Source of the DNA: Baffinella frigidus | Taxonomy: Eukaryota; Cryptophyceae; Cryptomonadales; Baffinellaceae | Assembly: GCA_026770585.1 (NCBI GenBank) | Contig: MU646712.1 | Location: 245,588 to 276,607, forward strand | Length of the DNA stretch: 31,020 nucleotides | Direction: 5' to 3' | Notes under the pieces: model-generated | The model's input: the letters and a program-made list of their open reading frames with translations, nothing else | The model's database searches: none | Told to the model about the DNA's origin: nothing | Part shown: positions 281-21,402 of the stretch, one piece after another | Numbering within the stretch: the first letter of the stretch is position 1 | How the letters are laid out: each line of letters begins with the position of its first letter | Position numbers and translations under genes: made by a program

Positions 281-366
281 ATATCGTCCATGAGCTTGAA
301 CTTCCCTCCGTTTGGCGAAGAGAACTCCCCCCCGAACACGAACAGGTTGCCCTCCCAGAGCCCCGT
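281..366 (-). CDS. kelch exon TGLWEGNLFVFGG
   Basis: The exon starts after the acceptor ttttttaacag and ends before the donor gtaaag. It reads TGLWEGNLFVFGGEF, then SSPNGGKFKLMDD, a typical kelch beta-strand with the GG doublet. Two damaged copies of its first 20-40 bases lie upstream in the intron at 468-487 and 880-920, which supports this one as the functional copy. Confidence 0.7.
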
Positions 367-4438: not shown

Positions 4439-4735
4439 ATGCAGGCAGAGGTCTAACTCCTAACCCCTAAACCAAACCATAAACCCTTTTAGAAACCCTC
4501 ACGCCTCACCCAGGTCAAGGCGGACGTTCTCAAGGCGCTCGGCCCCGGCGCGGAGGTCACCGCGAACCCCTAAACCCCTAAACCCCAACCCCCAAAATAA
4601 CCCCCTAACCCGTAAACCGTGAAGTAGGTGACGAAATGCCGCGAGCTGCAGCGCCTGTGGGCGGGGTATGGCATGGTGTATGAGGTTACTGCGACGCGGG
4701 GGGACGGGGGGCTGGAGAAGCTCGTTGTTAAGAAG
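4439..4735 (+). CDS. kinase exons 1-3 (N-lobe)
   Basis: Exon 1 is only 12 bases (MQAE), donor GAG/gtctaa. Exon 2 gives VKADVLKALGPGAE. Exon 3 gives VTKCRELQRLWAGYG, a nucleotide-loop-like segment, through to EKLVVKK, the N-lobe lysine strand. All three are phase 0 with GT-AG introns of 63 and 72 bases, the shortest in the gene. The short introns already contain CCCTAAA-type repeats. Confidence 0.85.
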
Positions 4736-5159
4736 GTCTATACCCTAAACCCTGTTCCTCGTCTATGAACCCTAAACCCTAAACCCTAAACCCTAAATCC
4801 GAAACCCTCAACCCTCAACCCTCAACCCTCAACCCTATACCCTAAGCCCTAGCCCCCAAATTCCCGAGATTCCAAGAGACGAATGACTTGGTTCTTCCTT
4901 CCGATTCGAGGCGTTTCCCACTCGAGAATGCAAGTGGGGCCTAGTTACATGTGGGGTTGTAAACATTTGTACCAGGAATGGGTATTCCAACCTCGCGTCT
5001 GGACTAATCTCGCCTAGTTACGTGACCAATTAACGAAGGTTACTACACTCATGCCCACGTTTAAAAGAAAATTGGGTTGAAATAGGCCCCGCTAGCATTC
5101 TCTTGTGGTCCAAGAAGTAGGGAAGGTGTTGAGAGGTTCGGGCCAGGTTATTCCTTTCA

Positions 5160-5209
<50 letters not shown>

Positions 5210-5372
5210 CTCTCTCACTCTGTTTTTCTCTCTTACTCTGTTTCTCTCTCTCTCTCTGACTCGGTTTCTCTCTCTGGCTCTGTTTCTCTCTCTCTGTCTC
5301 TCTGACTCTCTCTCTCTCTTTCTCCATGACTCTCTCTCTCTCTCCTCTCTCTCCTCTCTCTCTCTCTCTCTT

Positions 5373-5411
<39 letters not shown>

Positions 5412-8016
5412 CTTCTCTCTCTACCACAAACCTTGCTCTGTCGCTCGCTCATCACCCGGGAGGGCAGGTAAACGCGCCCAAGGAGGATGCAGATGACTCA
5501 ACCGGACACGCTCAAATCACATTTAATAATGATAATAATAATCAAAAATACCTAATTACATGCAAGATCTATCGCACCTGGTATAATTTGATATGTATCA
5601 ATAATATTGCAAACTGATATTAATACGGGGCTTTCACACCTGGTATGAACTGTCCTTCGCTCAGCTAAACCCCTGGGAGGGCACCACTAACCCTCACGGT
5701 TTGAGCAAATGGTCGAATTCGGCGGTACGTAATGCCCTTGAAGGCAGCCAAATTCCGGCGTCGGTTATTTTCAAAACTCTGAAAGCAGAGTGTTTAGAGT
5801 TTTAAAACTGTTACGTAATTTCCCAAATGCTCAAACCGTGAGGGCTGGTGGGCAGGTGAGCGCGCCGAAGGAGGATGCAGATGACCCAACCGGATAGGTG
5901 CGGTGCACCGCACCTGCTGACTAATACTAATCCTATAAGTCAGCACTATAATACTATTAGTCAGCACTATAATACTATTAGTCAGCACTATGATACTATT
6001 AGTCAGCACTATAATACTATTAGTCAGCACTATAATACTATTAGTCAGCACTATAATACTATTAGTCAGCACTATAATACTATTAGTCAGCACTATGATA
6101 CTATTAGTCAGCACTATAATACTATTAGTCAGCACTGTAATACTATAAGTCAGCACTATGATACTAGTAGCCAGCACTATAAAACTATTAGTCAGCACTA
6201 TAATACTATTAGTCGCGCTCAGCTAAACCCCTGGGGGGGCAGGTGAGCGCGCCGAAGGAGGATGCAGATGACCCAACCGGACACGCCAGAAAGCTCAAAT
6301 CCTACCAGGTGCGAGAGACCCGTATTATAAACCTCAATACAGGTCTCTCGGGGTTTCAGGTTTGGGGTTTGAGGTTTGGGGTTCGGGGTTGAGGGTTTGG
6401 GGTTTGGGGTTTGGGGTTGATAGTAAAGGTCTCTCGCAGCTGGTATGATGTGAGCCTTGGGACGCGGAGCTGGAACAGGCGGTGATCACCCAACCTCATT
6501 TTGAGCCAGGATGCTCAGATCCTACCAGGTGCGTGAGACTCATATTATTGATGTTTATGGATATTATTTATCCCTTATCTGCCTCCGTCCTTTGAAGAGG
6601 ATACTTTTGAGAGAACGCGTTTTGGGCGCGGATGAGTCCCACTCGGAACACTACGGGGAGCATTCTAAAGTTAATTATTGGATTATTTCTAAGGAAACAC
6701 GCCAAAAGTCAGCAATTTTGGCCACGTCATGTCCAATTTTCCGGGCAAGACGTGCCTCGCAGCCTCCCGAGTGGCAGCTGCGAGAGCGAAAGCGGCCTTG
6801 ATTACTACCGTTACCTTAAGTTAACGGAGGTTCCACTTTTGCTTTGAGACGATGCACTCTCGACTTTTGTCTCGGTGGGCAGCGCTCTTCGGGGCTGCGC
6901 AACGAGCCAAACGGACTGGGGACTCGCTAACGGCGAGAAGGATCTGACGCCCCAGCCCACACGGGTGAAACGGCAGCCATGTGTACACCCCCAGAGGCTC
7001 TGTCTCGAACATCCCACACCTGTTGACTTAACCCACAACTGTTAACTTATCAGGACCAGGTCAGGATCAGAACCCCCCACATTGTCAGCGCGGGCTGAGA
7101 TTTTTGGAGTTTAGGTACTTGTCTTTCGAGGGCCTTCACGGAAGGGAATACCCACTCGGTGGACTTCGAACCTTTCATCAAAAGTCAACTTACCTGAAGA
7201 CAATTAACTTTAAGATTTTTTCGAATTCAAATTGGTCTCGTAACACCCCGGAATCCGGGGTCAACGAAACCCTCGTAGCCCACGGAGTGGATGGTGGCCA
7301 TGTTGGTTTCGATCCGTAATAAATGCAAGTCCCTCTCTCCCACGACTGTTGTCTGAACCGGGGATTCGCCAGACACGCCCGGAATGCTGGAGAGAGTAGT
7401 TGAGTAGATGCGAAGGGGAGGGGCGCGAATTGGCGGGTCTCTTGGGGCTTAAACATAGTAACCAATGCGAAATAATTCACCCCTGCTTCTTCAGACCAAA
7501 TTGAAGAGCAGGACACGGTGAGATTTTTGCCGTTTTCAAAAGCTGAAATAATGAACTTTGGGGCGAGCTGCGGCGCGCTCAAATTTGCTCAAACACCCTG
7601 CGGTTCGGTAAGTGAATGGGTCTTTACCACACAATCCCCTGCAAAACCACAAATTGTGTCAGCACTGCATGCGATTGTAAACGGGGAATGTGTTGTCAAG
7701 ACCGAATTTGCCCCATTTGCTAATCAAAAGCACTTTTAAGATATAAAACGAATCTCGATCAACAGGTGGAAGCAGCCTTCTACCGGCACATCGCACCAGG
7801 CCTCCTCTCGCACCCCCACGGCCCTGCCGTCCCGCACGCCTTGCTCGTTTCTGGGGGCGACGTTGCAGGCACCCTACCCCCGAGACCCTCCAAAACCCGA
7901 AACCCGAGGCCCGAAACATGAAACCCTGACCCCGGAACCCTGAACGCTTGTTTCTCACTCTGTTTTGCAGGATCGCAGTGCCTGGGGATGTCAGACCGAG
8001 AGGGAGAGAGTCAGAA

Positions 8017-8061
<45 letters not shown>

Positions 8062-10624
8062 GACAGAGACAGAGACCTGAAACCCGAAACCCGAAACGCC
8101 AACCCCTACACCCCAACCCGAAAAACTACACCCGAAACCCTACAGCCTAAACCCTAAACCCTAAACCCTAAACCCTAAACCCTAAACCCTAAACCCTCTT
8201 TTCCAGGGTCGCTCTGCCTGGTGATGAGAGATCTGCGCTCCTCTTTCGGGGAAGGCACTACGCGGTAGCTACACACCCAAACCTCAAACCCTAATCCCCA
8301 ACCCCTACACCCTACACCCTTAACCTTAACCCCGAACCCCAGACCATACTCCTTACAGACCCTGAACCCTACACCCCAAACCCTACGCCCCAAATCCTAA
8401 ACCCTAAACCCTTAACCCCAAATCCTACACGCCAACCCCCAAAGACTACACCCTGCAAACGCTTATCCCTGAACACTTCACCCAGAACGCTACCCCCTAC
8501 CCCTTACACCGTACACCCCACACCCCAAACCTCAATCCTAAATCTTAAACCCCAAACCCTTAACCCAAACCCTACACCCCAAACCCTACACCCCAAACCC
8601 CAAACTCCAAACCATAAACCATAAACCGTAAACCGTAAACCGCAAACCTTAAACCCTACACCCCAAAACCTGCACCCTAAACGCTACCGCCGAAAGCAGG
8701 AGAGGAACCCTACAGGAAGGCCCCGCGGGGGCCGCCCTCTCCTTCCTCGCTAGGTCTGCTGGGGTTGGGCCTTAGGGTCTCGCGCACCCACGGTAGGGGG
8801 GGTTAGGGTTTAGGACATAGGGTTTCGGGTTTCTGGTTTTAAGGTGTAGGGTGTGGGGGTTAGGGGTTAGGGGTTAGGGTTAGGGTTTACACGAGACGGT
8901 TTCGGGGTTCGGGGTTCGGGTTTGACCCAACGCTGAGTCAGGAGAGGAACCCTGCAGCCTCGCTAGGTCTCCTGGGTTCGGGGCTTGCGGTTCAAGGTAT
9001 AGGGTGAAGGATCCAGGGTTTAAGGTTCTGCTGCCCGCATGCCTGTGGTGGCCGCGTACTGATGGCGTGTGCGTGCCTAGTATCTACACGCACGTCAAGA
9101 TGGCTCAGATGACTCCCAATGGAGGAACTCCTATGACGCAGGTTCCGAGCGCCCGCATCCCCAAACCCCCCGTGAACTTCTCACGGTTCTAACTCTTCGC
9201 GGCTTCAAACCGTGCACTTCCCACGGTTCCAACTCCCCACGGTTTCAAACAAACCTTAAACCCTAAACACTCAACCCTTCAACCCGACACCAGGTTCCAC
9301 GCGGCAAATTGGGAGAAGCCTCCACGCGAGGACCTCTGGGAGCAGGTTTCGGGTTTCGGGTTTCCGGGGGGGGTCAAAATTCAACAGTGAAATTGCGGGG
9401 GGGGCACTTTTTCGGGTTTCATCCGGGAACATAATTAATTGAAAAGAAAATTGCCTATCAAACCGAGTTCTGGTCCCAATTGAATTTACTTAGGGCCCGA
9501 ATTAACCTTCGTCCAACTCCTATAAACAAATAGGGATCCATTTTCTTCTAAATTTAACATGTCCCCGGATTAGCTTAGGGTTTCGGGTGTTGGGTGTTGG
9601 GTTTAAGGTTGGGTTCCAGGGAGTAGGGATCAGGGAACATGTTTTAAAGGCTAAACTAGGGTTTACGGTTACGGTTTACGGTGCAGGGATGAGGGTTTAG
9701 GGTGTAGGGAGCAGGCTTGCATTTCCTGGATTTGTTCCGTACGCCACCTATCCTGTATTCGAGGGGTGTTTCGCCTCCATTCGGTAGGCTACGGGGCACG
9801 TCCCTCCCCGGATGGGGCACGTCCCTCCCTGGACATCCGGGGAGGGACGTGACAAATTGCTGACGCTTGGCGTGTTTCTTGGGCAATAATCCAATAATTA
9901 ACTTGGTTCCTCGTAGTGTTCCGAGTGGAGGAGACCTCTGGAAGCAAACCCTACCTGACCCCTACCTGACTCCTAAACCCCACCTACCCCTACCCGACCA
10001 AAAACGCCCACTATGTGGTAGAGTAACACACGGACATGTGGGAGAAAAGGTTTGGTGGGACAAGTCGCGCAGAGTCGTTTGGATCTCTCATCTCCAGGCT
10101 TTCATCAAACAACCATCTAATTTCGGACCAAGACAGAATCTGTCCCGCTATCTTAGGCCCCCCACGCGGAAGGTAAGGGTGTATATCCTATTTTAGGGAT
10201 CAAATGATGGTATCTTACGGCTTTTCATGAGGACAGATCGTGGTATGGTGCGAGATGACATCTCTGGGAGCAGGGTGGGTACTGGCCGCTGGCGACACGC
10301 CACAAGGAGCTGGGACAGATGGGCGCTGAATGGCGCAGGTGCGCTTTTGTCCTGTTACTCCTGGTACACTGCTAGCCAGAAGATTTTGCGTTAGTCAACT
10401 TCGAAAAAACGGGAGAGGGGTGTAACAAAATGGACGCCACTGTGGCGTCCGGGATTCTAAAGTGGACGGTTTCAGGGGAGGGTTACTTGAGTAAAAAATC
10501 TTGGCTAGTAGTGTAGAAGTGGAGGTTCCCGTTTGCGTTGAAACGTCCCACTCCCGACGTTTGTCTCTCGAGTGCAACACCAGAAGAGAGAGAGAGAGAG
10601 AGCGAGAGAGAGAGCGAGAGAGAG

Positions 10625-10659
<35 letters not shown>

Positions 10660-13600: not shown

Positions 13601-16600
13601 TCATATGTGGGGTTGTAAAACTTTGTACCAGGATGAGGTATTCCAACCTCGTGACTGTGCTAAATTTGCGTACTGGATGTTATTACCACATATAATGTTG
13701 TGTACTGGCCACTAAAACCACATATAATGTTATGTACTGGCTTTTTGTACCACGAAAGATATAAATAATAGATGTATGGACAATGTCAGTATTTAGCGAA
13801 CCTGCTCTTCTCGAGCGGCGAGGAGAGATCTTGTGACCTTTCGGTGCCCGCTAAAACCACATACAATGGTGTACGCACCGTCAAAACCACATACAATGGT
13901 GTACACAACGCTTAAACCACTTACTAATTCTGCCCCACTTTGATTTCGTCTCCCCATCAATTCGCCAAACCCCCCTATTTCTCAGGTAAATTTCATGGGG
14001 GGGGGGTCAAAATTCACCTGACAAATTTTGGGGGGCGCGAATTGATGGGGAGACGAAATCGAAGTGGGACAGAGCTAGACATACAATGATTTACGCACCG
14101 CTAAAACCACGTATAATATTTTACACGGTTTGTTTGCCCGCATACAATGTTATATAAAGGTTGTTTTGTACCAGGAAAGAATACTGGCAGATTTATGGAC
14201 CATACAACTGCGAGAGTCTACGCCCTAAAACCTCACCCCTAATCCCTAAAATACGCGTGCACTACTGCGGGTGGGGTTATGGAACTGCTGGCTTGGGAAC
14301 CCTAAGCCCTAAATCCCAAACCATAAGCCCTAAACCCCAAACCATAAACCCTGAACCCTAAACCCTAAGCCCTAAACCCAAAACCCTAAACCCGAAACCC
14401 GAAACCCAAAACCCGAAACCCGAAACCATAAACCATAAACCATAAACCCTGAACCCTAAACCCTAAGCCCTAAACCCAAAACCCTAAACCCGAAACCCGA
14501 AACCCAAAACCCGAAACCCGAAACCCGAAACCCGAAACCCTAAAACCAACAAACCAACAAACCTTAAACCAGTACCCCTGAGCTTTCCCCTGATCCTTGC
14601 AACAGTAAAAGCTGACCCCTAATCTGTGTGTGCAGTACTGCGGCGGGGGTTACGGGAGCGCTGACTTGGTCATGCTTTTCGTCTCCGCTATGGAAGGTCG
14701 CACCCCTTTCGAATCCAGCTTCTCTATCTTCGGAGGCAAGAGCGTCCACACAGCGGGCTACGAAGGGATTTTCGGCCCATTTCGGGCCGAGTTTCCGTTA
14801 CCTGATCCGTAGGAACCCCCATATGTCCCTACGGGTTGCCTACTGTAGGGTCGTAGGTCTTATCGCTTGGTGGTTATTCAAAATCCCTTCAAAGTCCGCT
14901 GTGTGGTAGCAGTCCTGAGGCCACACGACACGGACTATCCACGGCAGGTCATTACTGGGAATTTCAGCACGCAACGGTTCGTTTCGTGGTACTCAATGGT
15001 ACGTAGCCACCTATCGACACGCAACTCCTCGACCTGTCACGACGGGATTTGGGGGGCTGAGCCACCTGCTTTCCGTTACCTTATCCGTAGGAAACCCCTT
15101 ATGCCCCTACGATATTGCCTACCGTAGGGTCCTATGGATGACTCTTGATGGGTTATTCACAAAATCCTTTCGTCCACGCCAGAACAAGGGCGTCCACGCC
15201 AGATCCTAAGTGCGAATTTCAGAACGCGACGTTTCGCTTAAAAGTGGTTTCGTGGTACAAATCCCACATTGTTGCGGTGCTCGGAATTAACTTGTAGCGT
15301 GATTCTCCCCCAAATCTCCAGAAAAAACTTCAGGAAAAATCCCACTTTCGACCTGGCGTGGTAAGGGCTTATTCGCCAATTCGGTAAGGGCTTATTCCTA
15401 GCTCTGTCCCACTTGATTTCGTCTCATCATCAAAAACATTTAGCCGTAGATGGACACTTAATTTGTACTGGAGATCCTTCTTTAAAACTAATGATAATGG
15501 CTAAATTTTTTTAATGATGAGACGAAATCAAGTGGGACAGAGCTAGTATTCGGCGGTTTGTGGCGCAGGGATGTGCGAGGCGCTAGGGGGGTCTTCTCAC
15601 GGAGTATCACCCCAGGCTGACCGTGGCCTTTGTTTAAATGCCGGTTTTTACAGTCGCGTCCAGGTTTGTACGGGGCTGGTCACGTGGCGTACGGATCATC
15701 CGCACGCCACGTGACCAGTCCCCGTACAAACTGTGAAAGAGGTTGTTTTATCTTGCCACTTGTAGAGTGTGTTCAAGGCCACGGTCAGTCTTGCGTGGTA
15801 CCTGAACACTGAACCCCAAACACAGGGATGTGCGGGGAGAGAGCGCGCATACACGAAACGCATATCTGTTCATTGCGCCTGCGATAATTTGGTAAGGGGT
15901 TATACGCCAGTGAGCTAAGCGGTTATACGGCGTTTTTTTTGTGAGATACGTCGTCGGTTTATCAACTTATTAAATCTCGCTTTCCCCCCCGTGCAGGGAT
16001 GTGCGCGGAGAGAGAGGGGGAGCTTCTCGCAAAGTACTGCTCCTTGCTTCAGGAGGCGCTTGCGGCGCACGGCCTGGTCAACCTGAACCCCCTCAACCTT
16101 CAAACCCCACACCCCTCAACCTTGAAAACCCTACACCTCTCAACCTTAAAACCCTACACCCCTCAACCTTAAAACCCCACACCCCTCAACCTTAAAACCC
16201 CACACCCTTCAACCTTAAAACCCCACACCCCTCAACCTCAAAACCCCACACCCCTCAACCTTAAAATCCCACACCCCTCAACCTTGAAAACCCGCACCCC
16301 TCAACCTCAAAACCCCACACCCCTCGACCTTAAAATCCCACACCCCTCAACCTTAAAACCCTACACCCCTCAACCTTAAAACCCCACACCCCTCAACCTT
16401 AAAATTCCACACCCCTCGACCTTAAAACCCCACACCCCTCAACTTTAAAAATCCACACCCCTCAACCTTAAAAACCCACACACCTCAACCTTAAAACCCC
16501 ACCCCCCTCAACCTTACAAATTCACCCCCCTCAACCTTAAACCCCACACCAATCTACTCTCGTAAGTAAATTTGATTAGGGCCAGAATCCGGTTTGATAG

Positions 16601-17549
16601 GCCATTTTCTTTTAAATCAAACCTGTTCCCGGATGAAGACCCTAGAACTTCGGCGCTCCCTGTAGCAGAAGGCGCTTGCGGCCCACGGGGGGTTAAACCA
16701 TAAAACCTGAATCCCGAACCAACCCCAAACCAACCCCACGCCCTAAAACATGAGGCCTGAACCCTAAACCCCAAACCCCATGCTCCTTCCTCGAATCTGC
16801 TCTTGCGGCCCACGGGATGGTGTACCCCTCAACCTTGCCACCCTAAGCAACCCACACCCTAGACCTCAAACCCTACGCAACCAGAACCCTGGACCCTAAA
16901 CCTCCTCCAATCTGCTCTCGCGGCTCGCAGGGTGGTAAACCCTCAACCCTCAACCGAGGGGTTGAAGGGTGCAGCCCTCGACCTTCCACTTGAGACCCTA
17001 AACCCTAAACCCTATACCCTGAACCCTAAACCCTAAACCCTAAACCCTGAACCCCAAACCCCAAACCCCAAACCCCAAACCTCCAACCTCAAACCTTAAA
17101 CCCTGAACCCTGAACCGCAGGGCGGGCGGGCGCCTTCCCTCGAGCAAGTCACGCGCCACTACGAGGTCTAATCCTGAACCCTCAACCCTAACCAGTTTGA
17201 CCATTTTGACCAGGTTGACCAGGTTGACCAGTAACTCTCAACCCTCAACCACTACGAGGTTCCCCCTCTCCCACACACCTTTTGGCCCTTAGCCTCAAAG
17301 CATACATAGTACTACCCAGACTGTAAACCTCAACCCTAAACCCTGAACCCTAAACCCCAAACCCTGAACCCCAAACCCTGAACCCTAAACCCTAAACCCT
17401 AAACCCTAAACCCTGAACCCTAAACCCTAAATCATAAACGCTAGTCTCGCGCGACGAAGCACGCTGCTGGGCACGCACGCTAGCTCTGTCCCAGTCTGTT
17501 TGGACTCACTCGTTTGTTGAGCCCGGACAGTTTTCTCACTCTGCCGCCC

Positions 17550-17595
<46 letters not shown>

Positions 17596-20500
17596 NNNNN
17601 NNNNNCCCCCCCCCTAAAACAAGGGAACCTTTGCCACTCCTAGCTCTGAGCGAGTCTATTTGGTCTCACCAATTTGGTGAGCCCGGGCTCTCTTGCGCGC
17701 CAAAATTCACGGATTTGTACCGCGAACCCGGCATGTCGACTTGAGAATAGTCTGTCAACCCCCACCAGCAACCCGTAACAGCTTTTACCGGAGCCTTGCA
17801 AGAATCCGGGAACGAAGTTTTTTTTTTGGTTTGTTCGTAGGACCCTGCGGTAGAAGTCCTTGGGGGCCTTGGAATTGCTAACGGGAGATACGGGCAGATA
17901 TGTCCGGTTTAGCTGAAATCTACTACAGTACCCAATCTGGTTACAAGCTGCATCGGGTTTATAGGTTATGGTTTACCATGAATCAATTTATTGGTACTGT
18001 GGAGCACCGTGTTCTGCATTCCCCCAAAGTCGATGAGTTCTCCTGTGGCCCTTGGCGACAAGTTTCCCTCAAGTTTATGGTCGGGCGTCATAAGTTCAAT
18101 AAAATACTCTTCTTTTCCTTTTCCTTCAGGTCTCGATGGGTCTTGCCGCGGTGCGCCTAAAACTTAAACCCCGAAGATAATAGAAGGACCCCCTAATCCA
18201 ATAATAGAAGGACCCCTTAATCCCCAAACCCTAAAACAGATGGCCCTGATCGACTTCCTGCGCTTTCTCGCGGGGCATGTGGGGTCTTGAGTCTTTCTAT
18301 TATCTTGAGTCTTTCCATAATCTTTAGTACTTCTATTATCTTGCGTCTTTCTATCATCTTGAGTCTTTCTATCATTCGTGGCACAAACCGTGGCACACAT
18401 AATACAAGGACTCAAGACGGATTCACGTGCACCATTTTGTGAACCTCTTCGCCTCTGGGCGCGGAAACCTTACCTTGAGTCTTTCTATTATTCGTGGTAT
18501 AAATCGTGGTACAAATAATAGAAGGACCCCCTAATCCCCAAACCCTAAAACAGCTGGCCCTGATCGACTTCCTGCGTTTTCTCGCGGGGTGGGGCATGTG
18601 GGGCGATACAGGTTCGACCCCTCTTTCAGACCAGCAAAACATGACCCCCCCTTCAGACCAGCAAACCACCACTCGGAACACTACGGGGAATGCTCAAGTT
18701 AATTATCGGATTGTTTCTAAGGAAACACGCCAAAAGTCAGCAATTTGGTTACGTGATGTCCAAATATCCGGGCATGACGTGCTTCGTAGCCTCCCGAGTG
18801 GCATGCGCCTCCCTTGCAAACCAGCAAAACATAATGCACCGGGGTGGGGCACGTGGGGCCACACCGGTCTGACCCCAAACCTAGGGTTTAGAGTTCAGGG
18901 TTCAGGGTTTAGGGTCTTAGGGCTCACAGACGTTTGGATCACTCATCTCCAGGCTTGGGAGTAACAAAGAAGAAGAAGATGATGAAGATGAAGATGAAGA
19001 AGAAGAAGATGAAGAAGATGAAGAAGAAGAAGAACGTTGCTGTGTACCAGTTTCGACACATGTCTCTTTGAGGAAAGCTGGGCCATTCATTCGACAGCCT
19101 AGACCCTAAACCACAAACACTTTGCAGAGTATCTCTCCGCACGTTGTTGCAGATAGAGCAGTTTCCCCCAACCCCTAACCCCTCACCCTAAACTCCCAAA
19201 CCCCAAACCCCAAGCCCCAAGCCTCAAACCCTGCAGAGTATCTCGCCCCAACCGCATCCCCGAAACCCGAATCCCGAAACCCTATCCCTTAAGTGGCCAT
19301 AGGGTGAACATTCGCCCTAACTCGCCCTAGGCAGGTCCTAGGGCCCTGCGGTAGGGCGTATGCGCCTACTGGCCACTTAAAAGATACCGCAAGCCCCTTG
19401 GCCCCCGAGGGACCGGCCCTTGAGAACTCAACAACCTACCCTAAACCCCGAGCCCCAAACCCCTGCAGAGTACCTCGTAGCGCGGGGGAGGGTTATGTTG
19501 GACAGGCTGCGCCGTCGAACTAGGACCCTACGGTAGGCAGTCCGTAGGGACATAGGGGGGGTTCCTACGGATACGGTGACCGGAACTGCCTTGATTCTGA
19601 AGCTTTTTGCCCTTGGTGGCCCGCTGTGTGGCCTAACCCCCCCACTCCACACCCTGAAGCAGAGTATCTCGTCGCGCGGGGGAGCGTCATATTGGACAGG
19701 CTCGATGGACCCGCACGAGAGCCCCTCCCCCCTCAGGTTCAAGGTTTACGGTTTAGGGTTCAGGGTTAAGGGTTTACCCACAGGTTATGCCCAGCAAGGG
19801 AGCCCCGCTTGCCTCAGCTTGTCCCCAAGCGTTGCCGAGTGAGGACGTGGCACAATTTAAAAGGATTTTAAAAACTTTTACCTGAATTTTAAGAGAAACG
19901 GACTTTTCAAATGAAAAAGCTGAGACCGGATTTCCGGTCCTGGCTTTTCAATGAATCCCGGGTTGCCTCGATAGCGGCTTCCGTCTTAGGGTTTAGGGTT
20001 AGAAGTCTAGGGTTCAGGGTTCAGGTTTCAGAGTTCAGGGTTCAGGGTTCAGGGTTGGATGCCTTGATAGCCCGGTGTGTGGGTTGGTCTCGATCCGTAC
20101 CCGACGGCGCCGCAAGAGAGCCCCTCTCCCCTCAGGTTTATGGTTTGGGGTTTATGGTTTAGGGTTGAGGGTTGAGGGTTTACCCACAGGTTATGCCCGA
20201 GGCTCCCGTTAGGGTTTAGGGGTTCAGGGTTCAAGGTTAAGGGTTAAGGGTCAAGGGTTCACCTTTTAGGGTTCAGGGTTCAGGTTTCAGGGTTCAGGGG
20301 TTCAGGGTTCAAGGTTGAGGGTGGTGGCGATGGGAGAAGGCAGGGAGCCCCTCTGCTCCTGCTCTCAGGTTATGCCCCAGACCCGAAAACGTTTTTGTCA
20401 GCCTCATCACCAACACCCGAAAAGCGCACCTGTTCGCCCAAACAGAGTCGTTGGCTGTCCACTCGAGGCTGGCAGAGGGAGTATTTTAAAAGTGGGGTTG

Positions 20501-20931
20501 TTAAATTTGTACCAGTCACGGGCGGGTTTGGTCACGTAGCTGCTTGATATCGGTCACGTGGCTGCCCACTTCGGCACCGATCAGCTACGTGACCAAACGC
20601 GACAATGTGTGTGAAATTTACTACACACCGCGCCACTTATAAAGGTTCCCCGGTTTTGAAATAATCACATTTCTAGCCTCGAGTGGGTGTCCGCACCCCC
20701 CTCCGCCACGAGCTTACCTCGACGCTCTCTACAGTGAGTTTTGGTTTGGTGTGTGTGTGCGCTGAATCAACGCCCCCCCCGCGCTCCGCAGGCGTGCGTG
20801 AATCGTGTTGGTTTGGTTTGTGTGTGCTGGATCGTTTTGGTTTGGTGTTTGTGTGCGCTGAATCACCCCCCCCCCGCGCTCTGCAGGGTTACCTCGATGC
20901 TGTCTACCGCGAGTTTCCCCTCGACGAGTAG
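4439..20931 (+). CDS. CHK/EcKinase-like small-molecule kinase, 17 exons, 350 aa
   Basis: Exons: 4439-4450, 4514-4555, 4628-4735, 6243-6308, 7766-7856, 8207-8254, 8720-8753, 9294-9345, 10274-10338, 12754-12857, 13412-13479, 14636-14696, 15997-16076, 17121-17165, 18554-18611, 19663-19736, 20887-20931. They sum to 1053 bases and keep one frame to TAG. The fold is the aminoglycoside-phosphotransferase/CHK (ecdysteroid-kinase-like) type: N-lobe strand LVVKK (residues 50-54), RFHAANWEK (134-142), GGYWPLATRHKELG (152-165), Brenner motif VVHGDFKAAN (205-214) with catalytic Asp209 and Asn214, metal-binding Asp228 in YDLQYCGGGYG, and C-terminal LRFLAGWGMWG and YLVARGSVILDRLDG. Such enzymes phosphorylate hydroxyl groups on small molecules; the substrate here is unknown. 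Length and motif order suit an intact enzyme. Introns make up about 94 percent of the gene. Exon ends 5, 6 and start 7 are the least certain: the frame requires GC donors there. Confidence 0.85.
4736..4860 (+). repeat. CCCTAAA/CCCTCAA telomere-like array
   Basis: Tandem heptamers with the C-rich strand as sense, beginning a few bases inside kinase intron 3. Confidence 0.9.
4918..5108. mobile_element. TIR element, family J copy 3 (191 bp)
   Basis: The ends read CCACTCGAGAATGC and, inverted, CCACAAGAGAATGC. It contains GTGGGGTTGTAAAC and GTACCAGG, shared with 13577-13665 and 20459-20686. Confidence 0.75.
5163..5412 (+). repeat. (CT)n microsatellite
   Basis: About 250 bases of CT dinucleotides interrupted by TTT and TCACTCTG. 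The Ser/Leu and Arg/Glu open frames across it are artefacts of the repeat. Confidence 0.97.
5468..5509 (+). pseudogene. decoy copy 1 of kinase exon 4
   Basis: After a gggcag acceptor it reads VNAPKEDADDSTGHA, then loses about eight bases relative to exon 4, so the frame and the KLKSYQ end are broken. Confidence 0.85.
5510..5690. other. AT-rich intron segment
   Basis: Contains a TAATAATGATAATAATAATC run and two CACCTGGTAT motifs (near 5576 and 5637) related to the ends of the element at 6305-6443. No gene seen. Confidence 0.5.
5691..5844. mobile_element. TIR element, family H (154 bp)
   Basis: The ends are CCCTCACGGTTTGAGCA and its near-exact complement. It is inserted directly upstream of decoy copy 2 of exon 4. 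Confidence 0.85.
5856..5897 (+). pseudogene. decoy copy 2 of kinase exon 4
   Basis: Reads VSAPKEDADDPTG and then a TAG stop, where exon 4 continues HARKLKSYQ. The break is followed almost at once by the 21-bp minisatellite. Confidence 0.85.
5921..6213 (+). repeat. 21-bp minisatellite, array 2
   Basis: About fourteen tandem units containing AGTCAGCACTATAATAC on the plus strand, the same unit as the array at 1925-2236 but on the other strand. In both arrays this strand is the sense strand of the host gene. Confidence 0.95.
6243..6308 (+). CDS. kinase exon 4
   Basis: Acceptor ggggcag, donor CTACCAG/gtgcga, 22 codons: VSAPKEDADDPTGHARK and LKSYQ. In CHK-like kinases this follows the lysine strand, and the KLKSYQVE stretch leads into the FY helix of the next exon. 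Chosen over two upstream decoys because only this copy is complete. Confidence 0.88.
6305..6443. mobile_element. TIR element, family L (139 bp), overlapping a splice donor
   Basis: The left end is CCAGGTGCGAGAGACC and the right end is GGTCTCTCGCAGCTGG, inverted repeats with one mismatch. The left end includes the exon 4 donor (CAG/gtgcga). The right end has a GCAG that could be an acceptor. The centre holds TTTGGGG-type repeats (about 6357-6420). Confidence 0.7.
6507..6540 (+). pseudogene. decoy copy of exon 4 3' end plus donor
   Basis: GATGCTCAGATCCTACCAG/gtgcgtgagac repeats the end of exon 4 and the first bases of its intron, without the preceding reading frame. Confidence 0.75.
6639..6774. 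mobile_element. TIR element, family I copy 1 (136 bp)
   Basis: The ends are CCACTCGGAACACTACGGGG and an inverted CCACTCGGGAGGCTGCG. It shares GAAACACGCCAAAAGTCAGC with copies at 18669-18801 and, inverted, 9777-9928. Confidence 0.85.
6775..7151. other. intron segment without recognised features
   Basis: Ordinary-looking sequence, with no telomere-like array, no decoy exon and no TIR pair that I could identify. Short open frames lack any recognisable motif. Confidence 0.4.
7152..7290. mobile_element. TIR element, family B copy 1 (139 bp)
   Basis: The ends are CCACTCGGTGGACTTCGAA and an inverted CCACTCCGTGGGCTACGAG. It is the same length as, and very similar to, 10703-10841, including GAAGACAATTAACTT and GATTTTTTC. 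Confidence 0.9.
7291..7765. other. unique-looking end of kinase intron 4
   Basis: No arrays or TIR pairs were recognised. It ends in the acceptor cgatcaacag of kinase exon 5. The open frames here show no family motif. Confidence 0.4.
7766..7856 (+). CDS. kinase exon 5
   Basis: Reads VEAAFYRHIAPGLLSHP and PHALLVSG, the FYxxIAP helix that follows KSYQ in CHK-like kinases. The end at 7856 (GGG-G/gcgacg) is a GC donor, chosen because a GT donor at 7862 would put exon 6 into a frame with an immediate stop. Confidence 0.75.
7971..7996 (+). pseudogene. decoy copy of exon 6 5' end
   Basis: A ttttgcag acceptor followed by GATCGCAGTGCCTGGGGATG, a mutated match to exon 6 (GGTCGCTCTGCCTGGTGATG). It runs straight into GAGA/GACA microsatellite (about 7998-8072). 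Confidence 0.75.
7998..8072 (+). repeat. (GA)n/(GACA)n microsatellite
   Basis: GAGAGA units followed by eight GACA units and GACAGA units, ending in CGAAACC-type telomere-like repeats. Confidence 0.95.
8135..8200 (+). repeat. near-perfect CCCTAAA array
   Basis: Seven to eight perfect CCCTAAA heptamers ending five bases before the exon 6 acceptor cttttccag; the pyrimidines of the array may serve as the polypyrimidine tract. Confidence 0.95.
8207..8254 (+). CDS. kinase exon 6
   Basis: Reads SLCLVMRDLRSSFGE; this is the strand that carries LLLEDL in relatives. The end was placed at GAAG/gcacta (GC donor) so that G/GC CCC joins exon 7 in frame. A GA-AG intron one triplet earlier would give the same protein. 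Confidence 0.72.
8280..8690 (+). repeat. degenerate CCCTAAA/CCCCAAA/CCCTACA array
   Basis: Continuous imperfect C-rich heptamers filling most of kinase intron 6, sense strand C-rich. Confidence 0.92.
8720..8753 (+). CDS. kinase exon 7
   Basis: Reads PAGAALSFLA with AG left over, donor GCTAG/gtctgc. It is the helix before the FHA motif. The acceptor is either tacag (8715) or aggaag (8719); the second keeps the frame with a GC donor upstream. Confidence 0.72.
8795..8940 (+). repeat. TTTAGGG-type array, G-rich strand as sense
   Basis: GGGTTAGGGTTTAGG and GGGTTCGG units in kinase intron 7, one of the exceptions to the usual C-rich sense polarity. Confidence 0.85.
8939..8975 (+). pseudogene. decoy copy of exon 7 3' end plus donor
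   Basis: CAGGAGAGGAACCCTGCAG, CCTCGCTAG/gtctcctggg repeats the exon 7 neighbourhood (8697-8765) with an internal deletion of most of the exon. Confidence 0.8.
9001..9293 (+). other. intron 7 segment
   Basis: A 62-codon open frame from 9004 shows no recognisable motif. The stretch ends with four short repeats of CACGGTTYCAAACC-like sequence (9176-9250) and CCCTAAA remnants. Confidence 0.4.
9294..9345 (+). CDS. kinase exon 8
   Basis: Acceptor acaccag. It completes Arg134 with exon 7 and reads FHAANWEKPPREDLWEQ, the FHAxxW motif diagnostic of CHK-like kinases. Donor GAGCAG/gtttcg. Confidence 0.88.
9420..9571. mobile_element. TIR element, family M copy 1 (about 152 bp)
   Basis: The ends read CATCCGGGAACA and, inverted, AATCCGGGGACATGTT. 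It shares TTGCCTATCAAACCG-like and ACTTAGGGCC-like blocks with 11351-11506 and 16562-16637. Confidence 0.75.
9777..9928. mobile_element. TIR element, family I copy 3, inverted (152 bp)
   Basis: Reverse-oriented relative of 6639-6774. An internal tandem duplication of GGGGCACGTCCCTCCC makes it longer. Confidence 0.8.
9929..9950 (+). pseudogene. decoy copy of exon 8 3' end
   Basis: GGAGACCTCTGGAAGCAAAC matches the exon 8 end GAGGACCTCTGGGAGCAG plus its intron start. Confidence 0.7.
9951..10256 (+). other. intron 8 segment
   Basis: Short CCCTACC-type repeats at 9945-10000, then unassigned sequence. No gene or TIR pair recognised. Confidence 0.4.
10257..10273 (+). pseudogene. copy of exon 8 3' end abutting exon 9
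   Basis: ATCTCTGGGAGCAG ends exactly at the acceptor of exon 9. It repeats the last 13-14 bases of exon 8, so the intron is bounded by a direct repeat ending in GAGCAGG. Confidence 0.85.
10274..10338 (+). CDS. kinase exon 9
   Basis: Reads GGYWPLATRHKELGQMGAEW then R, with AG left over. GGYW is the classic start of the linker helix in this family. Donor GCGCAG/gtgcgc. Confidence 0.9.
10586..10658 (+). repeat. (GA)n microsatellite
   Basis: GAGA with GCGA interruptions. The flanks repeat GACGTTTGTCT (10556 and 10659), so the microsatellite sits between short direct repeats. Confidence 0.95.
10703..10841. mobile_element. TIR element, family B copy 2 (139 bp)
   Basis: The ends are CCACACGGTGGGCTACGAA and an inverted CCACTCGGTGGGCTACGAAG. 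Same length as copy 1 at 7152-7290. Confidence 0.92.
10898..11090 (+). pseudogene. decoy copy of exon 9, split by a TIR element
   Basis: The left part reads TRDQELEEI-like sequence (exon 9 TRHKELGQM) and the right part, AGATAGGCGCCGAATGTC, matches CAGATGGGCGCTGAATGGC. Element G2 (10933-11064) lies between the two halves, so a duplicated exon was present before the insertion. Confidence 0.75.
10933..11064. mobile_element. TIR element, family G copy 2 (about 132 bp)
   Basis: The ends are GGGGAAACCTATTTTT and its complement. It carries TGTGTAGTAATTTTCG like copies 1 (2539-2682) and 3 (28077-28175). Confidence 0.88.
11147..11275. mobile_element. TIR element, family O (129 bp)
   Basis: Perfect 16-base inverted ends CCACCCTGGAGGCAAC. 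A central hairpin ATGCGCCCGG/CCGGGCGCAT is at about 11196-11219. Confidence 0.9.
11351..11506. mobile_element. family M copy 2 (about 156 bp)
   Basis: Ends in ACATGTTCCCGGATGAG and shares GGGCCAGAATCCGGTTTGAT with 16562-16637 and the middle of 9420-9571. Confidence 0.75.
11507..11720 (+). repeat. TTTAGGG-type array, G-rich sense, enclosing a decoy of exon 9
   Basis: GGGTTTAGGG and GGGTTGGGG units with a copy of the exon 9 middle (ACCAAGCTGGAACAGAT) at 11597-11613. Confidence 0.8.
11715..11750 (+). pseudogene. further decoy of exon 9
   Basis: GGCACGGAGCTGTGACAG resembles CGCCACAAGGAGCTGGGACAG of exon 9. Short and heavily mutated. Confidence 0.5.
11831..12037. mobile_element. TIR element, family J copy 1 (207 bp) with a perfect hairpin
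   Basis: The ends are CCACTTGAGGCTAGAAATG and an inverted CCACTCGAGGCTGG. Inside is a perfect 19-base hairpin at about 11929-11970 with arm TTGGTCACGTATCTCAAGT and loop TATG, plus TGTGTAGTAATTTT. Confidence 0.88.
12170..12216 (+). pseudogene. decoy copy of exon 9 3' part
   Basis: Reads LDQMGADWQR with a donor-like AAAG/gtccgc, against ELGQMGAEWR in exon 9. Confidence 0.8.
12236..12375. repeat. inverted G-rich/C-rich telomere-like repeat
   Basis: GGTTTGGAGGGTGGGGTGCA on the plus strand turns at about 12332-12340 into its complement CACCCTGCACCCCACCCTCC. The arms exceed 25 bases. Confidence 0.85.
12383..12430 (+). pseudogene. another decoy of exon 9
   Basis: CGGCACACGGAGCGTGAGTG and CGAATGTCAAAGATGG resemble pieces of the exon 9 neighbourhood seen at 11068-11090. 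Confidence 0.5.
12441..12600 (+). repeat. CCCCAAA/CCCTAAA array with a decoy of exon 10 start
   Basis: C-rich heptamers. At 12531-12548 AAGGCTCAAAGCTGCAAAC matches the start of exon 10 (CAGGCTCAAGGCAGCAGCC). Confidence 0.75.
12754..12857 (+). CDS. kinase exon 10
   Basis: Completes Arg173 and reads LKAAAGAIDRRIRGLPKE through to FRTVVH plus G. It is the helix and loop before the catalytic strand. Donor CACG/gtgcga; with exon 11 it makes the VVHGDFK motif. Confidence 0.9.
12870..13014 (+). repeat. short CCCTAAA runs
   Basis: Degenerate C-rich heptamers just after the donor of exon 10. Confidence 0.75.
13015..13146. repeat. head-to-head telomere-like fusion
   Basis: Five to six perfect TTTAGGG units on the plus strand (13021-13059) join directly to about eleven CCCCAAA units (13060-13145). 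The orientation flips at about 13059/13060. Confidence 0.93.
13147..13235 (+). pseudogene. decoy copy of exon 11 5' end
   Basis: AGCAGGGGACTTGAATGCAG then GGAACTTG reads GDLNAGNL, a mutated GDFKAANL. It has an acceptor-like AGCAG. Confidence 0.8.
13412..13479 (+). CDS. kinase exon 11 (catalytic loop)
   Basis: Acceptor cccttgcag. It completes Gly208 and reads DFKAANLLFSRGGEVCAAYD and LQ. Asp209 and Asn214 of the Brenner motif and the metal-binding Asp228 are all in this exon. Donor CTTCAG/gtaaac. Confidence 0.93.
13577..13665. mobile_element. fragment of family J element
   Basis: CATTCGAGAATGCTAG, GTGGGGTTGTAAA and TTCCAACCTCG match 4918-5108; the right end is missing. Confidence 0.7.
13788..13830 (+). 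pseudogene. decoy copy of exon 11 middle
   Basis: Reads ANLLFSSGEE from AGCGAACCTGCTCTTCTCG. It lacks both the HGD side and the YDLQ side. Confidence 0.85.
13924..14078. mobile_element. TIR element, family E copy 1 (about 155 bp)
   Basis: The inverted ends are CTAGCTCTGTCCCACTT (right side) and CTAATTCTGCCCCACTTTG (left), extending to TTCGTCTCCCCATCAATTCG. The interior is a second palindrome with poly-G. The flanking TA could be a target duplication, as in Tc1/mariner-type MITEs. Confidence 0.88.
14255..14295 (+). pseudogene. decoy copy of exon 12 5' end
   Basis: Reads HYCGWGYGTAGL, against YCGGGYGSADL. It is followed at once by CCCTAAA repeats. Confidence 0.85.
14296..14570 (+). repeat. 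CCCTAAA/CCCGAAA array
   Basis: C-rich heptamers with an internal duplication of about 110 bases (14340-14445 against 14445-14530). Confidence 0.92.
14636..14696 (+). CDS. kinase exon 12
   Basis: Acceptor gtgtgtgcag. Reads YCGGGYGSADLVMLFVSAME plus G, the segment after the metal-binding Asp that is conserved as GGG-G-xxDL in this family. Donor GAAG/gtcgca. Confidence 0.9.
14746..14906. mobile_element. TIR element, family A copy 2 (161 bp)
   Basis: The ends are CCACACAGCGGGCTACGAAG and an inverted CCACACAGCGGACTTTGAAG. Opposite orientation to 530-689. Confidence 0.9.
15071..15171. mobile_element. family A fragment
   Basis: Matches the core of 14746-14906 (CGTTACCTTATCCGTAGGAA to AAAATCC). 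The terminal repeats are lost or strongly mutated. Confidence 0.75.
15398..15546. mobile_element. TIR element, family E copy 2 (149 bp)
   Basis: About 32-base perfect inverted ends beginning CTAGCTCTGTCCCACTTGAT, extending to TTCGTCTCATCAT. The interior differs completely from copy 1. Confidence 0.95.
15618..15787. mobile_element. TIR element, family K copy 1 (170 bp) with a long hairpin
   Basis: The ends are TGACCGTGGCCTT and its complement. The internal hairpin at 15664-15730 has an arm of about 26 bases beginning TTTGTACGGGGCTGGTCACG. A second copy is at 29021-29188. Confidence 0.9.
15997..16076 (+). CDS. kinase exon 13
   Basis: Acceptor ccccgtgcag. Completes Gly251 and reads MCAEREGELLAKYCSLLQEA and LAAHGL. 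It matches the helix LLxxYHxxL in relatives. Donor CTG/gtcaac. Three decoys of its 3' end follow in the intron. Confidence 0.9.
16085..16545 (+). repeat. 22-bp minisatellite (CCTCAACCTTAAAACCC)
   Basis: About twenty units of 22-23 bases based on CCTCAACCTTAAAACCC then CACACC. It starts directly after the donor of exon 13 and looks like an amplified variant of the C-rich heptamer. Confidence 0.95.
16562..16637. mobile_element. family M fragment
   Basis: AGTAAATTTGATTAGGGCCA to TGTTCCCGGATGA matches the right half of 11351-11506. Confidence 0.85.
16640..16935 (+). pseudogene. three decoy copies of exon 13 3' end
   Basis: At 16668-16692 (AAGGCGCTTGCGGCCCACGG), 16794-16822 (reading ESALAAHGMVYPS) and 16914-16935 (reading QSALAARRVV). 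All repeat the QEALAAHGL end of exon 13 and are spaced by CCCTAAA-type sequence. Confidence 0.88.
16975..17112 (+). repeat. CCCTAAA/CCCCAAA array
   Basis: C-rich heptamers reaching to eight bases before the acceptor of exon 14. Confidence 0.92.
17121..17165 (+). CDS. kinase exon 14
   Basis: Acceptor gaaccgcag. Reads GGRAPSLEQVTRHYE in phase 0, matching SLEQLxxxYE of the family. Donor TACGAG/gtctaa. A decoy of its end (CCACTACGAGGTTCC) lies at 17243-17258. Confidence 0.85.
17195..17240 (+). repeat. TTGACCAGG short tandem repeat
   Basis: Four copies of TTGACCAG(G/T) between CCCTCAA remnants. Confidence 0.85.
17325..17440 (+). repeat. CCCTAAA/CCCTGAA array
   Basis: C-rich heptamers, fairly regular. 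Confidence 0.92.
17480..17690. mobile_element. family E-like ends around a poly-C and an assembly gap
   Basis: Two copies of TAGCTCTG at 17481 and 17640, each followed by TTTGGACTCAC/TTTGGTCTCACC and GAGCCCGG. Between them lie a poly-C run (about 17550-17613) and ten Ns (17596-17605). The length of this stretch is therefore uncertain. A similar end (AGACTGGGACAGAGCTAG) is at 27920-27937. Confidence 0.6.
17691..18170 (+). other. intron 14 segment with an 86-codon open frame
   Basis: The open frame 17900-18160 (MSGLAEIYYSTQSGYK...) shows no family I recognise and fits no phase of the kinase. Codon use looks random. Probably intron sequence. Confidence 0.4.
18175..18415 (+). pseudogene. decoy copy of exon 15 and short GAGTCTTTCTAT repeats
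   Basis: At 18236-18282, after AAACAG, it reads MALIDFLRFLAG then loses the WGMWG end. It is followed by six to seven 17-18 bp units GAGTCTTTCTATTATCTT. The flank TAATAGAAGGACCCCCTAAT recurs before the true exon at 18517. Confidence 0.88.
18554..18611 (+). CDS. kinase exon 15
   Basis: Reads LALIDFLRFLAGWGMWGDT plus G. The DxxRFxxGWGxWG block is characteristic of this kinase family. Donor ACAG/gttcga. Confidence 0.92.
18669..18801. mobile_element. TIR element, family I copy 2 (133 bp)
   Basis: The ends are CCACTCGGAACACTACGGGG and an inverted CCACTCGGGAGGCTACGAAG. Close to 6639-6774 over its whole length. Confidence 0.93.
18968..19033 (+). repeat. (GAA/GAT)n microsatellite
   Basis: AAGAAGATGATGAAGATG triplets. 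Open frames across it are low-complexity artefacts. Confidence 0.95.
19115..19520 (+). pseudogene. three decoy copies of exon 16 5' part
   Basis: At 19121-19150 (GCAGAGTATCTCTCCGCACG), 19233-19255 (GCAGAGTATCTCGCCCCAAC) and 19463-19512 (reading EYLVARGRVMLDRL, long enough to keep the motif). Each starts with a cag acceptor and is preceded by C-rich heptamers. The third is interrupted by element A4. Confidence 0.88.
19287..19380. mobile_element. TIR element, family D copy 1 (94 bp)
   Basis: Near-palindrome with ends CTTAAGTGGCCA. Related to 21481-21580. Confidence 0.85.
19516..19631. mobile_element. family A copy 4, inserted in a decoy of exon 16
   Basis: Contains CTAGGACCCTACGGTAGGCA and ends GGCCCGCTGTGTGG. 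The left terminal repeat is degraded. Confidence 0.8.
19663..19736 (+). CDS. kinase exon 16
   Basis: Acceptor ctgaagcag. Completes Glu312 and reads YLVARGSVILDRLDGP and EPLPPQ, the C-terminal LLDRLDG helix of the family. Donor CCTCAG/gttcaa. Chosen over three upstream decoys because it alone runs in frame to an intact donor. Confidence 0.88.
19740..20350 (+). repeat. G-rich telomere-like sequence with decoys of exon 16 3' end
   Basis: GGGTTCA and GGGTTTA heptamers, G-rich strand as sense. Embedded are two copies of the exon 16 end: 20096-20134 (reading DGAAREPLSPQ) and 20328-20368 (GAGGGAGCCCC-like, ending in CTCTCAG/gtt). A CCCACAGGTTATGCCC block occurs at 19778-19793 and 20192-20207. Confidence 0.82.
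20459..20686. mobile_element. TIR element, family J copy 2 (228 bp)
   Basis: The ends are CCACTCGAGGCTGGCAGA and an inverted CCACTCGAGGCTAGAAATG. It contains the hairpin TTTGGTCACGTAGCTG and GAAATTTACTACACA. Confidence 0.88.
20708..20745 (+). pseudogene. decoy copy of exon 17 5' part
   Basis: Reads AYLDALYSEFW, against GYLDAVYREFP. The following TTTGGTTTGTGTGTG...CTGAATCA block is itself repeated at 20805-20865. Confidence 0.88.
20887..20931 (+). CDS. kinase exon 17 with stop codon
   Basis: Acceptor ctctgcag. Reads GYLDAVYREFPLDE and TAG at 20929-20931. It matches the YLxAxYxxFP end of related kinases. Confidence 0.88.
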   Translation, partial: GYLDAVYREFPLDE

Positions 20932-21195
20932 ACGAGAAACCTCCAGAGGCTTCTACAAAGTTGACAGGTTTCTAGCATCGTCAACTTTTGGCGTGAACGA
21001 GTATAGGAGTACCTCGCTCAAAAGAAACGCCCACCACCCTAGGATCACGATAGGGCCCTAGGCGTAGGCTTACTGTAGGGTTCTAGGGGGAGGCGGTTTC
21101 TTATGAGTGAGGTACCCCTGTAGATGAAGTCGACGAGAAACCTCCCAAGATGTCCACGCAGTTGACAGGTTATTACCAGCATCGTCAACGTGCGT
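20932..21195 (+). repeat. duplicated 3' flank of the kinase gene, with a TIR element between copies
   Basis: TCGACGAGAAACCTCC through GTTGACAGGTT and AGCATCGTCAAC occurs at about 20929-20988 and 21130-21190. Element C1 (21001-21122) lies between. Probably 3' UTR sequence. Confidence 0.8.
21001..21122. mobile_element. family C copy 1 (122 bp near-palindrome)
   Basis: The ends resemble TACAGGGGTACCTCGCTCAT. The whole element folds on itself via CCTAGGACC/GGTCCTAGG. Confidence 0.9.
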
Positions 21196-21371
21196 ACCAC
21201 GCAAGATTGTAGGGCTGACTGCCTTACGAGAGTTAGGGTCGATGTGCGCCCTTTCTTAAGATCATAAGTAAACTATTCCTAGGACCCTACGGTAGGAAAT
21301 TCCTAGGGACCTAGGAATTTCCCAGGGGGGGTGAATAGATGGCGAGGTCAGCCCAAGAGTCTTGCGTAGTG
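21196..21371. mobile_element. TIR element, family P (about 176 bp)
   Basis: The ends are CACGCAAGATTGTAGGGCTG and an inverted CACTACGCAAGACTCTTGGG. The interior stem is CCTAGGACCCTACGGTAGG with CCTAGGAATTTCC. It abuts a decoy of exon 17. Confidence 0.75.
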
Positions 21372-21402
21372 CCTCGTCGCTGTTTACCGCGAGTTCCAAA
21401 AT
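21369..21402 (+). pseudogene. decoy copy of exon 17 downstream of the gene
   Basis: GTGCCTCGTCGCTGTTTACC then GCGAGTTCC reads CLVAVYREF. It lies beyond the stop codon, so the decoys continue past the last exon. Confidence 0.8.

Follow-up and report, generated by a model that had tools for sequence, protein, structure and literature searches.

Same-strand partial copies of flanking exons in the introns of a kinase gene and of other genes of the cryptophyte Baffinella frigidus

The window analysed here, the whole stretch of 31,020 nucleotides taken from contig MU646712.1 of Baffinella frigidus, contains a kinase gene that raises the question of how its introns came to hold degraded pieces of the very exons that they flank. 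Transposons are the usual explanation for the lengthening of introns. Here, exon sequence itself has been copied into the introns, leaving polar copies that can be compared with each other. These copies offer an internal clock for duplication, and their decoy junctions provide a natural test of how splicing ignores them. They are also a warning for the annotation of cryptophyte genomes, in which decoys could be called as exons.

Partial exon copies in the introns of the kinase gene

When joined, the exons of the gene (Table 1) yield one open frame of 361 amino acids, with AG at the acceptors and GT or GC at the donors; GC donors are apparently used by exons 5 (window position 7869) and 6 (window position 8255). 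The predicted protein matches the Pfam families APH (2.5e-12) and EcKL (9.1e-7) and is up to 62% identical to its relatives across 89% of its length. A search of the species' own genome (382 Mb, 1364 contigs) showed the gene to be present as a single copy, with 11 of 11 matches lying at exon places. A scan of viral contigs found no relatives, and Pfam scans with short exon fragments gave no useful match. Tandem or telomere-like repeats, as defined by the mask, make up 4,617 bp of the 15,407 bp of intron. By eye, introns 1, 2, 5 and 6 (4451-4513, 4556-4627, 7869-8206 and 8255-8719) consist largely of degenerate CCCTAAA-type, telomere-like heptamers; the masked fractions of these introns were 0, 0.47, 0.75 and 0.89, respectively, intron 1 having been missed by the mask. 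The heptamers often stand directly 5' of acceptors, where they may supply a branch point and a pyrimidine tract.

Copies of the exons were searched for by Smith-Waterman alignment, using 17 kinase exons with 25-nt flanks as queries (exon 1, with 12 nt, was left out) and with tandem and heptamer repeats masked. At a score of at least 34, dinucleotide-shuffled queries gave a background of 0.23 matches per exon on both strands of the window. The 17 exons produced 21 direct matches at this threshold in their own flanking introns, one in the other introns of the gene and two elsewhere. Both of the latter are copies of the coding sequence of exon 18 (E18) located past the stop codon, and splicing is therefore not needed for the copying process. 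Inverted matches at the same threshold numbered three in the own introns, all of them of the E4 donor edge, none in the other introns and five outside.

The original prediction had placed decoys near exons 4, 6 to 13 and 15 to 17, with a short one for exon 14. Direct copies scoring at least 34 within the exon's own introns or 3' flank were found for 10 of the 17 exons (E4, E6, E7, E9, E11, E12, E13, E16, E17 and E18), and E10 gained one at a threshold of 28. No such copy scoring at least 28 was present for E2, E3, E5, E8, E14 and E15; weak copies of E8 and E14 are visible by eye only. The decoy EYLVARGRVMLDRL, predicted to be in frame and then assigned to exon 16, was recovered upstream of the exon that is E17 in the present model.

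At a score of at least 28, all 13 upstream direct matches in the kinase gene lay at the acceptor or 5' side of the exon and none included the donor. Among the 12 downstream matches, six crossed the donor and none spanned the acceptor; one of the 12 corresponds to the E7 acceptor flank, the E7 decoy being an almost complete copy that lacks only the middle. The decoys are located 32 to 1846 nt from the live exon. Stretches from an exon to its outermost decoy account for 7,446 of the 15,407 intron bp, and the decoys proper for 906 bp. Whether decoys are as frequent elsewhere in the genome as near their own exon, which the original prediction had named as a check, was examined for exon 4: a search of the 382 Mb returned three matches, all within its own gene, namely live exon 4 and the two strongest of its upstream decoys, in a search that was not exhaustive, because the known downstream decoy (77%) was missed.

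Table 1. Positions within the window of the kinase gene, its live exons with their copies, and exons of two further genes (E, exon)
Feature	Position	Strand	Remarks
Kinase gene, APH/EcKL type	4439-20931	+	18 exons, 1086 bp CDS, 15,407 bp intron
Live E4	6243-6308	+	
E4 upstream decoy, acceptor and exon 1-44	5444-5511	+	86% identity, score 95; also returned by genome search
E4 3' edge and donor, two inverted copies	5568-5591, 5621-5657	-	scores 36 and 42
Acceptor flank of E4 copy	5660-5683	+	96% identity; apparently parted from 5847-5894 by palindromic insert
Palindromic element within E4 decoy	about 5684-5849		GGGCA at both borders (by eye)
E4 upstream decoy, acceptor and exon 1-39	5847-5894	+	98% identity; also returned by genome search
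E4 3' edge and donor, inverted copy	6421-6458	-	score 48
E4 downstream decoy, exon 25-66 and donor	6484-6548	+	77% identity
Live E6	8207-8254	+	
E6 upstream decoy, acceptor and exon 1-25	7964-7995	+	
Live E7	8720-8753	+	
E7 downstream near-whole copy	8939-8991	+	middle deleted, donor retained
Live E9	10274-10338	+	
E9 downstream decoy, exon 36-65 and donor	12184-12224	+	83%
Live E11	13412-13479	+	
E11 upstream decoy, acceptor and exon 1-23	13148-13174	+	
E11 downstream partial copy, exon 14-44	13795-13825	+	without donor
Live E12	14636-14696	+	
E12 upstream decoy	14257-14296	+	acceptor AG changed to AC
Live E13	15997-16076	+	
E13 upstream decoy, acceptor and exon 1-40	15565-15606	+	
E13 upstream decoy, acceptor and exon 1-18	15823-15843	+	
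E13 downstream decoy over donor	16655-16699	+	GT aligned to TT
E13 downstream decoy over donor	16802-16826	+	GT kept
E13 third downstream decoy	about 16915	+	by eye
Live E16	18554-18611	+	
E16 upstream decoy, acceptor and exon 1-50	18237-18284	+	87%
E16 downstream decoy, exon 32-58 and donor	18840-18876	+	84%
Live E17 (EYLVARGSVILDRL...)	19663-19736	+	
E17 upstream decoy (EYLVARGRVMLDRL)	19465-19508	+	89% to live exon
E17 shorter upstream decoys	19124-19143, 19237	+	score 28; by eye
E17 downstream decoy, exon 41-73	20102-20134	+	realigned: through donor and 38 nt of intron
Live E18	20887-20931	+	carries stop codon
E18 acceptor, two upstream decoys	20696-20741, 20770-20792	+	
E18 coding sequence, two copies past stop codon	21109-21145, 21372-21395	+	
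Exon of second gene, kelch-like by eye	2243-2334	-	upstream decoys 2548-2468, 3280-3247; downstream 1923-1863, 1506-1474
Last exon, probably of same gene as kelch-like exon	277-366	-	upstream decoys 923-877, 490-468
Exon of third gene	25361-25451	-	downstream decoys 25281-25231, 25120-25070 (3' part and donor)

Copies in other genes and at exact splice junctions

Two more genes of the window, both on the minus strand, contain copies of their exons, and all eight of the eight copies show the polarity seen in the kinase gene, in genes that were chosen after the copies had been seen. The matches of the kelch-like exon to Pfam Kelch_3 and Kelch_4 are far below the cut-off (E about 0.2).

A larger set of 33 exons at 14 loci was taken from Pfam hits in the species' own genome, comprising 12 of the 17 hits to HSP70, 9 of the 10 to TCP1 and 12 of the 45 to kinesin; two stop-containing kinesin hits, each overlapping another hit (C506:56113 and C112:294252), were excluded as queries. 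Direct copies with a score of at least 34 occurred within 3 kb of 19 of the 33 exons, or 21 when either strand was counted, in a set that was not fully blind, copies having been seen beforehand in loci L032, L033 and L039 and hinted at by overlapping kinesin hits in C506 and C112. Direct matches near the exon numbered 60 (478 per Mb of masked sequence searched); far direct matches, counted across the remaining loci plus the window, numbered 165 (52 per Mb), and many of these lay in flanks. Near inverted matches amounted to 4 (32 per Mb) compared to 78 far ones (24 per Mb), and the near copies thus have predominantly the same orientation as the exon, as expected for tandem duplication. Upstream copies fell into the 5' half of the exon in 29 of 32 cases and downstream copies into the 3' half in 24 of 28 (Fisher, 1.5e-9). 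At the nine loci without prior sight of copies, 12 of 20 exons had direct copies, again with upstream copies in the 5' half (17 of 19) and downstream copies in the 3' half (13 of 14; Fisher, 2.3e-6). The results show that introns of this genome hold same-strand part copies of their flanking exons, with the 5' part and acceptor upstream and the 3' part and donor downstream, and that series of such part copies sometimes stand in tandem. The phenomenon is not limited to the kinase gene.

In the flanks of an intronless HSP70 gene (L030) no direct copies of the open reading frame were found, and the same was observed for the long open reading frames of L042, L043 and L020; the long open reading frame in L033 had one direct copy per side. 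L030 and L031 on C709 are two intronless HSP70 genes that form an inverted, head-to-head pair and score equally against Pfam, and an HSP70 paralogue on C62 (L032) is divided into about 18 exons. Among the named proteins in the best 120 matches of the intronless HSP70, the top identities were to cryptophytes, namely Guillardia theta (90%), Hanusia phi (88%), Hemiselmis and others.

Exact splice junctions were compared in 33 exons, 17 from the kinase gene and 16 from outside the window, the latter being picked from exons having copies. These represent 16 of the 19 exons with direct copies, in which the edges could be set by eye; two could not be set, and L038 was left out of the junction, age and homology analyses as its 5' anchor matched twice. 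Overlapping matches were counted once, and E18 was excluded from the donor count. The original prediction had stated that upstream decoys keep the acceptor and the 5' part of the exon, and downstream decoys the 3' part and the donor. This was clearly borne out, as 37 of 39 acceptor-bearing copies were located upstream and 2 downstream, while all 27 donor-bearing copies were located downstream and none upstream (Fisher, 1.7e-16). Only one of 65 junction copies comprised a whole exon, not counting the E7 decoy with its lost middle, whereas the expected share of whole-exon copies would be 38% for units of 200 bp (P 9e-13), 11% for 100 bp (P 0.004) and 7% for 80 bp (P 0.04).

Tandem units and the growth of introns

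At some loci the units could be read directly. L046 contains a tandem unit with a period of about 262 bp, L048 four tandem units of about 220 bp whose copies all end at exon position 64, and L044 a composite unit of 369 bp that is present twice; in L034, tandem units are broken by an insert with CCTACC on both flanks. Homology extended over at least 70% of the period in 14 of 77 adjacent pairs, over less than 70% in 63 and over less than 40% in 43. Plain tandem duplication must therefore invoke later insertions or decay, to which we ascribe the pairs short of full-period homology and which were read in some loci only. Tandem duplication offers no explanation for the three inverted copies at the donor edge of E4.

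We consider it likely that the copies arose by recurrent local tandem duplication, in which one boundary of the duplicated unit (about 100-400 bp) lies in an exon and the opposite boundary in an intron. Short tandem duplications would arise often and locally; replication slippage, unequal exchange and the repair of breaks are all candidate routes. Where one end falls into an exon and the other into the adjacent intron, the exon would survive in one complete version, and the intron would receive an exon fragment together with its splice junction and grow by the length of the unit. Duplications of a whole exon, or those with both ends within the exon, would damage the message and be purged by selection, and the rarity of whole-exon copies matches what selection would produce. 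This filter, together with geometry, may give rise to the polarity, because a tandem duplication ending in an exon must leave the acceptor and 5' part upstream, or the 3' part and donor downstream, when one intact exon is kept. As the process recurs and the live edge exchanges sequence with copies already present, snapshots of the live exon would accumulate in series; unequal exchange of this kind could expand series whose copies share the same inner end, as seen in L048. The snapshots would then decay about neutrally and gain MITE-like and telomere-like inserts. The proposal that introns lengthen, and that former junctions become buried in them, through repeated local duplication over splice junctions is supported in this gene and in others of this genome. 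The polarity needs no splice-specific cause, since any tandem duplication that ends in an exon and has one intact survivor suffices; it follows from geometry and selection without splice-aware machinery.

The same polarity, with one exon always intact, would result if double-strand breaks inside exons were repaired by copying from the sister on one side only, with overshoot, and by end joining, the inner end of the copy being the break site. Copy ends were indeed found mostly in the middle of the exon: the inner ends of upstream copies had a mean position of 0.52 of the exon (n=36, KS p 0.005 against uniform) and the starts of downstream copies one of 0.55 (n=27, three values beyond the exon omitted, KS p 3e-4). 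However, ends in mid-exon may also stem from selection against near-complete copies, and several copies in L048 share both inner end and flank, which better fits the expansion of an array. A breakpoint common to upstream and downstream copies, which is the sharpest prediction of break repair and was suggested by E17 (40/41) and L033 (45/45), did not hold in permutation over 11 exons (count within 5 nt, p 0.32; mean, p 0.84) and was dropped. Mending of breaks in exons thus appears rather unlikely as the source of the copies.

Recurrent tandem duplication, the preferred reading, has relatives among the routes of intron gain. Tandem duplication is called the best supported such route in PMC3443670, which reviews gain by tandem genomic duplication of an AGGT segment; a potato RdRp case is given in PMC4974935. 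AGGT-type gain resembles the present case in that tandem duplication puts copied exon sequence and duplicated splice sites into an intron; it differs in that a single duplication within an exon creates a new intron, whereas here existing introns apparently grow by repeated junction-spanning duplications at many exons, leaving serial decoys. Over 15 nt at the kinase junctions, exon end and intron end agreed at a mean of 6.1/15 positions (permuted 5.6, p 0.07), and the start of the next exon and that of the intron at 4.8/15 (permuted 4.6, p 0.32). AGGT copies abutting the splice sites were not found in the kinase gene, with the intron between E8 and E9 as a possible exception. The end of this intron (10258-10273) copies the end of E8 at 13/15 nt and is the sole site of AGGT-type appearance; another copy is located at about 9936. 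Intron gain at double-strand breaks (PMC3443670 and, for Daphnia, PMC4202315) likewise leaves direct repeats at coding sites from repair, but these are short repeats around one new intron, whereas the present copies are about 20-100 nt long, span junctions and are repeated. In the partial texts returned by a literature search, there was no account of introns lengthened by serial part-exon duplication. Tandem duplication is established for intron gain (PMC3443670); what is unusual is its repeated use for intron growth that leaves fossil parts of exons behind.

Age and order of the copies and the remaining explanations

Live exons and their decoys differed at 9.1, 9.5 and 25% of codon positions 1, 2 and 3, respectively, and at 20.7% of positions in the intron flank. 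This pattern fits neutral decay of the decoys (about 9-10%) together with free change at intron and silent sites of the live gene. When decoys were compared with each other, 92 of 505 columns were variable at codon positions 1 and 2, as opposed to 75 of 249 at position 3 (p 2.7e-4) and 97 of 277 in the intron (p 3.3e-7). By set, variation at position 3 exceeded that at positions 1 and 2 in 15 sets versus 3 (p 0.008), and variation in the intron did so in 7 versus 3 (p 0.34); the position-3 contrast persisted inside base groups (G/C, p 0.028; A/T, p 3e-4). As the decoys vary less at codon positions 1 and 2, part of the difference between them seems to have been gained while the sequence was live exon, and from this comparison the decoys look like snapshots of the live exon and not like copies of one dead copy.

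The copies could alternatively be functional parts of splicing, as alternative or regulatory part exons under selection. In the decoys, the AG was kept in 37 of 39 and the GT in 25 of 27 cases, compared to 69% of 213 and 72% of 185 of the same dinucleotides elsewhere in the alignments (p 3e-4 and 0.015). However, the excess is small when codon positions 1 and 2 are used as neutral yardstick (AG, P 0.017; GT, P 0.16), and a special conservation of the decoy AG and GT, strong against the one reference and weak against the other, was not retained as a finding. In addition, 15 of 73 exon parts carry frameshifts and 5 of 73 stops, and AC replaces AG in two decoys (that of E12 and one in L045). A function of the decoys in splicing is improbable.

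With regard to order, the original prediction had each new copy pushing the older ones outward. Here only a trend was seen: the nearest copy was better than the farthest in 12 sets and worse in 6 (p 0.16), and identity showed no significant relation to distance (Spearman -0.05, p 0.70, 71 copies). As identity does not drop with distance, the picture of older copies lying farther out is unsupported. It is conceivable, though we hold it with considerable doubt, that introns in this lineage grow by a one-way ratchet, in which partial duplications recur at the two edges of most exons and turn introns into a layered fossil record of exons. Earlier exon sequences could then be recovered and dated within one genome, and buried splice sites would perhaps be weakly kept through a role in splicing.

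Exons had also been implied to be the targets of the process, which is not clear from the counts. Among 100-bp windows without dispersed repeats, 33 of the 48 exon windows had a local direct copy, as did 177 of the remaining 645 (27%), where the exon set is biased to exons with copies, the other set includes unlisted exons, and exon copies stay detectable for longer, one side being conserved. An earlier count in the kinase gene alone gave 9 of 17 exon-centred versus 10 of 46 intron windows with copies. Exon targeting was dropped, since non-exon windows likewise carry local copies; probably, a general process of local duplication is made visible by exons, and these are less special than they appear.

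A mobile element, either introner or MITE, that carries and inserts exon edges and splice sites is a very improbable source. Palindromic MITE-like families fill the genome, and some such elements stand at copy borders in L033 (by eye), but the copied part is the local exon, and the exon 4 search (one exon, limited sensitivity) yielded nothing outside its own gene. The palindrome inside the E4 decoy has its own flanking repeat, and by eye the decoy therefore seems older than the insertion. Introner elements (PMC9860276) also alter intron content genome-wide, and MITE-like elements are abundant here too; an introner is nevertheless a dispersed element, whereas the unit repeated here is the local exon edge, and with the exon 4 query no dispersal over many genes was seen. 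Hardly credible is an assembly artefact, that is, false local duplications, for although a gap of 10 N lies within a poly-C run of the window (17596-17605), false duplications are expected to be near-identical and unpolarised, whereas the copies are incomplete and polar, with identities mostly of 70-98%, and are present at 19 of the 33 family-hit exons on several contigs.

A palindromic MITE-like family of 121-125 bp (TACAGGGGTACCTCGCTCATAAG...) has many copies between window positions 21000 and 30500, where other palindromic families occur as well; genome-wide, 40 of 3203 first-look candidates for the 121-bp family were scored, and these matched. An imperfect palindrome of 393 bp is located at 29877-30269 (77% over 414 columns).
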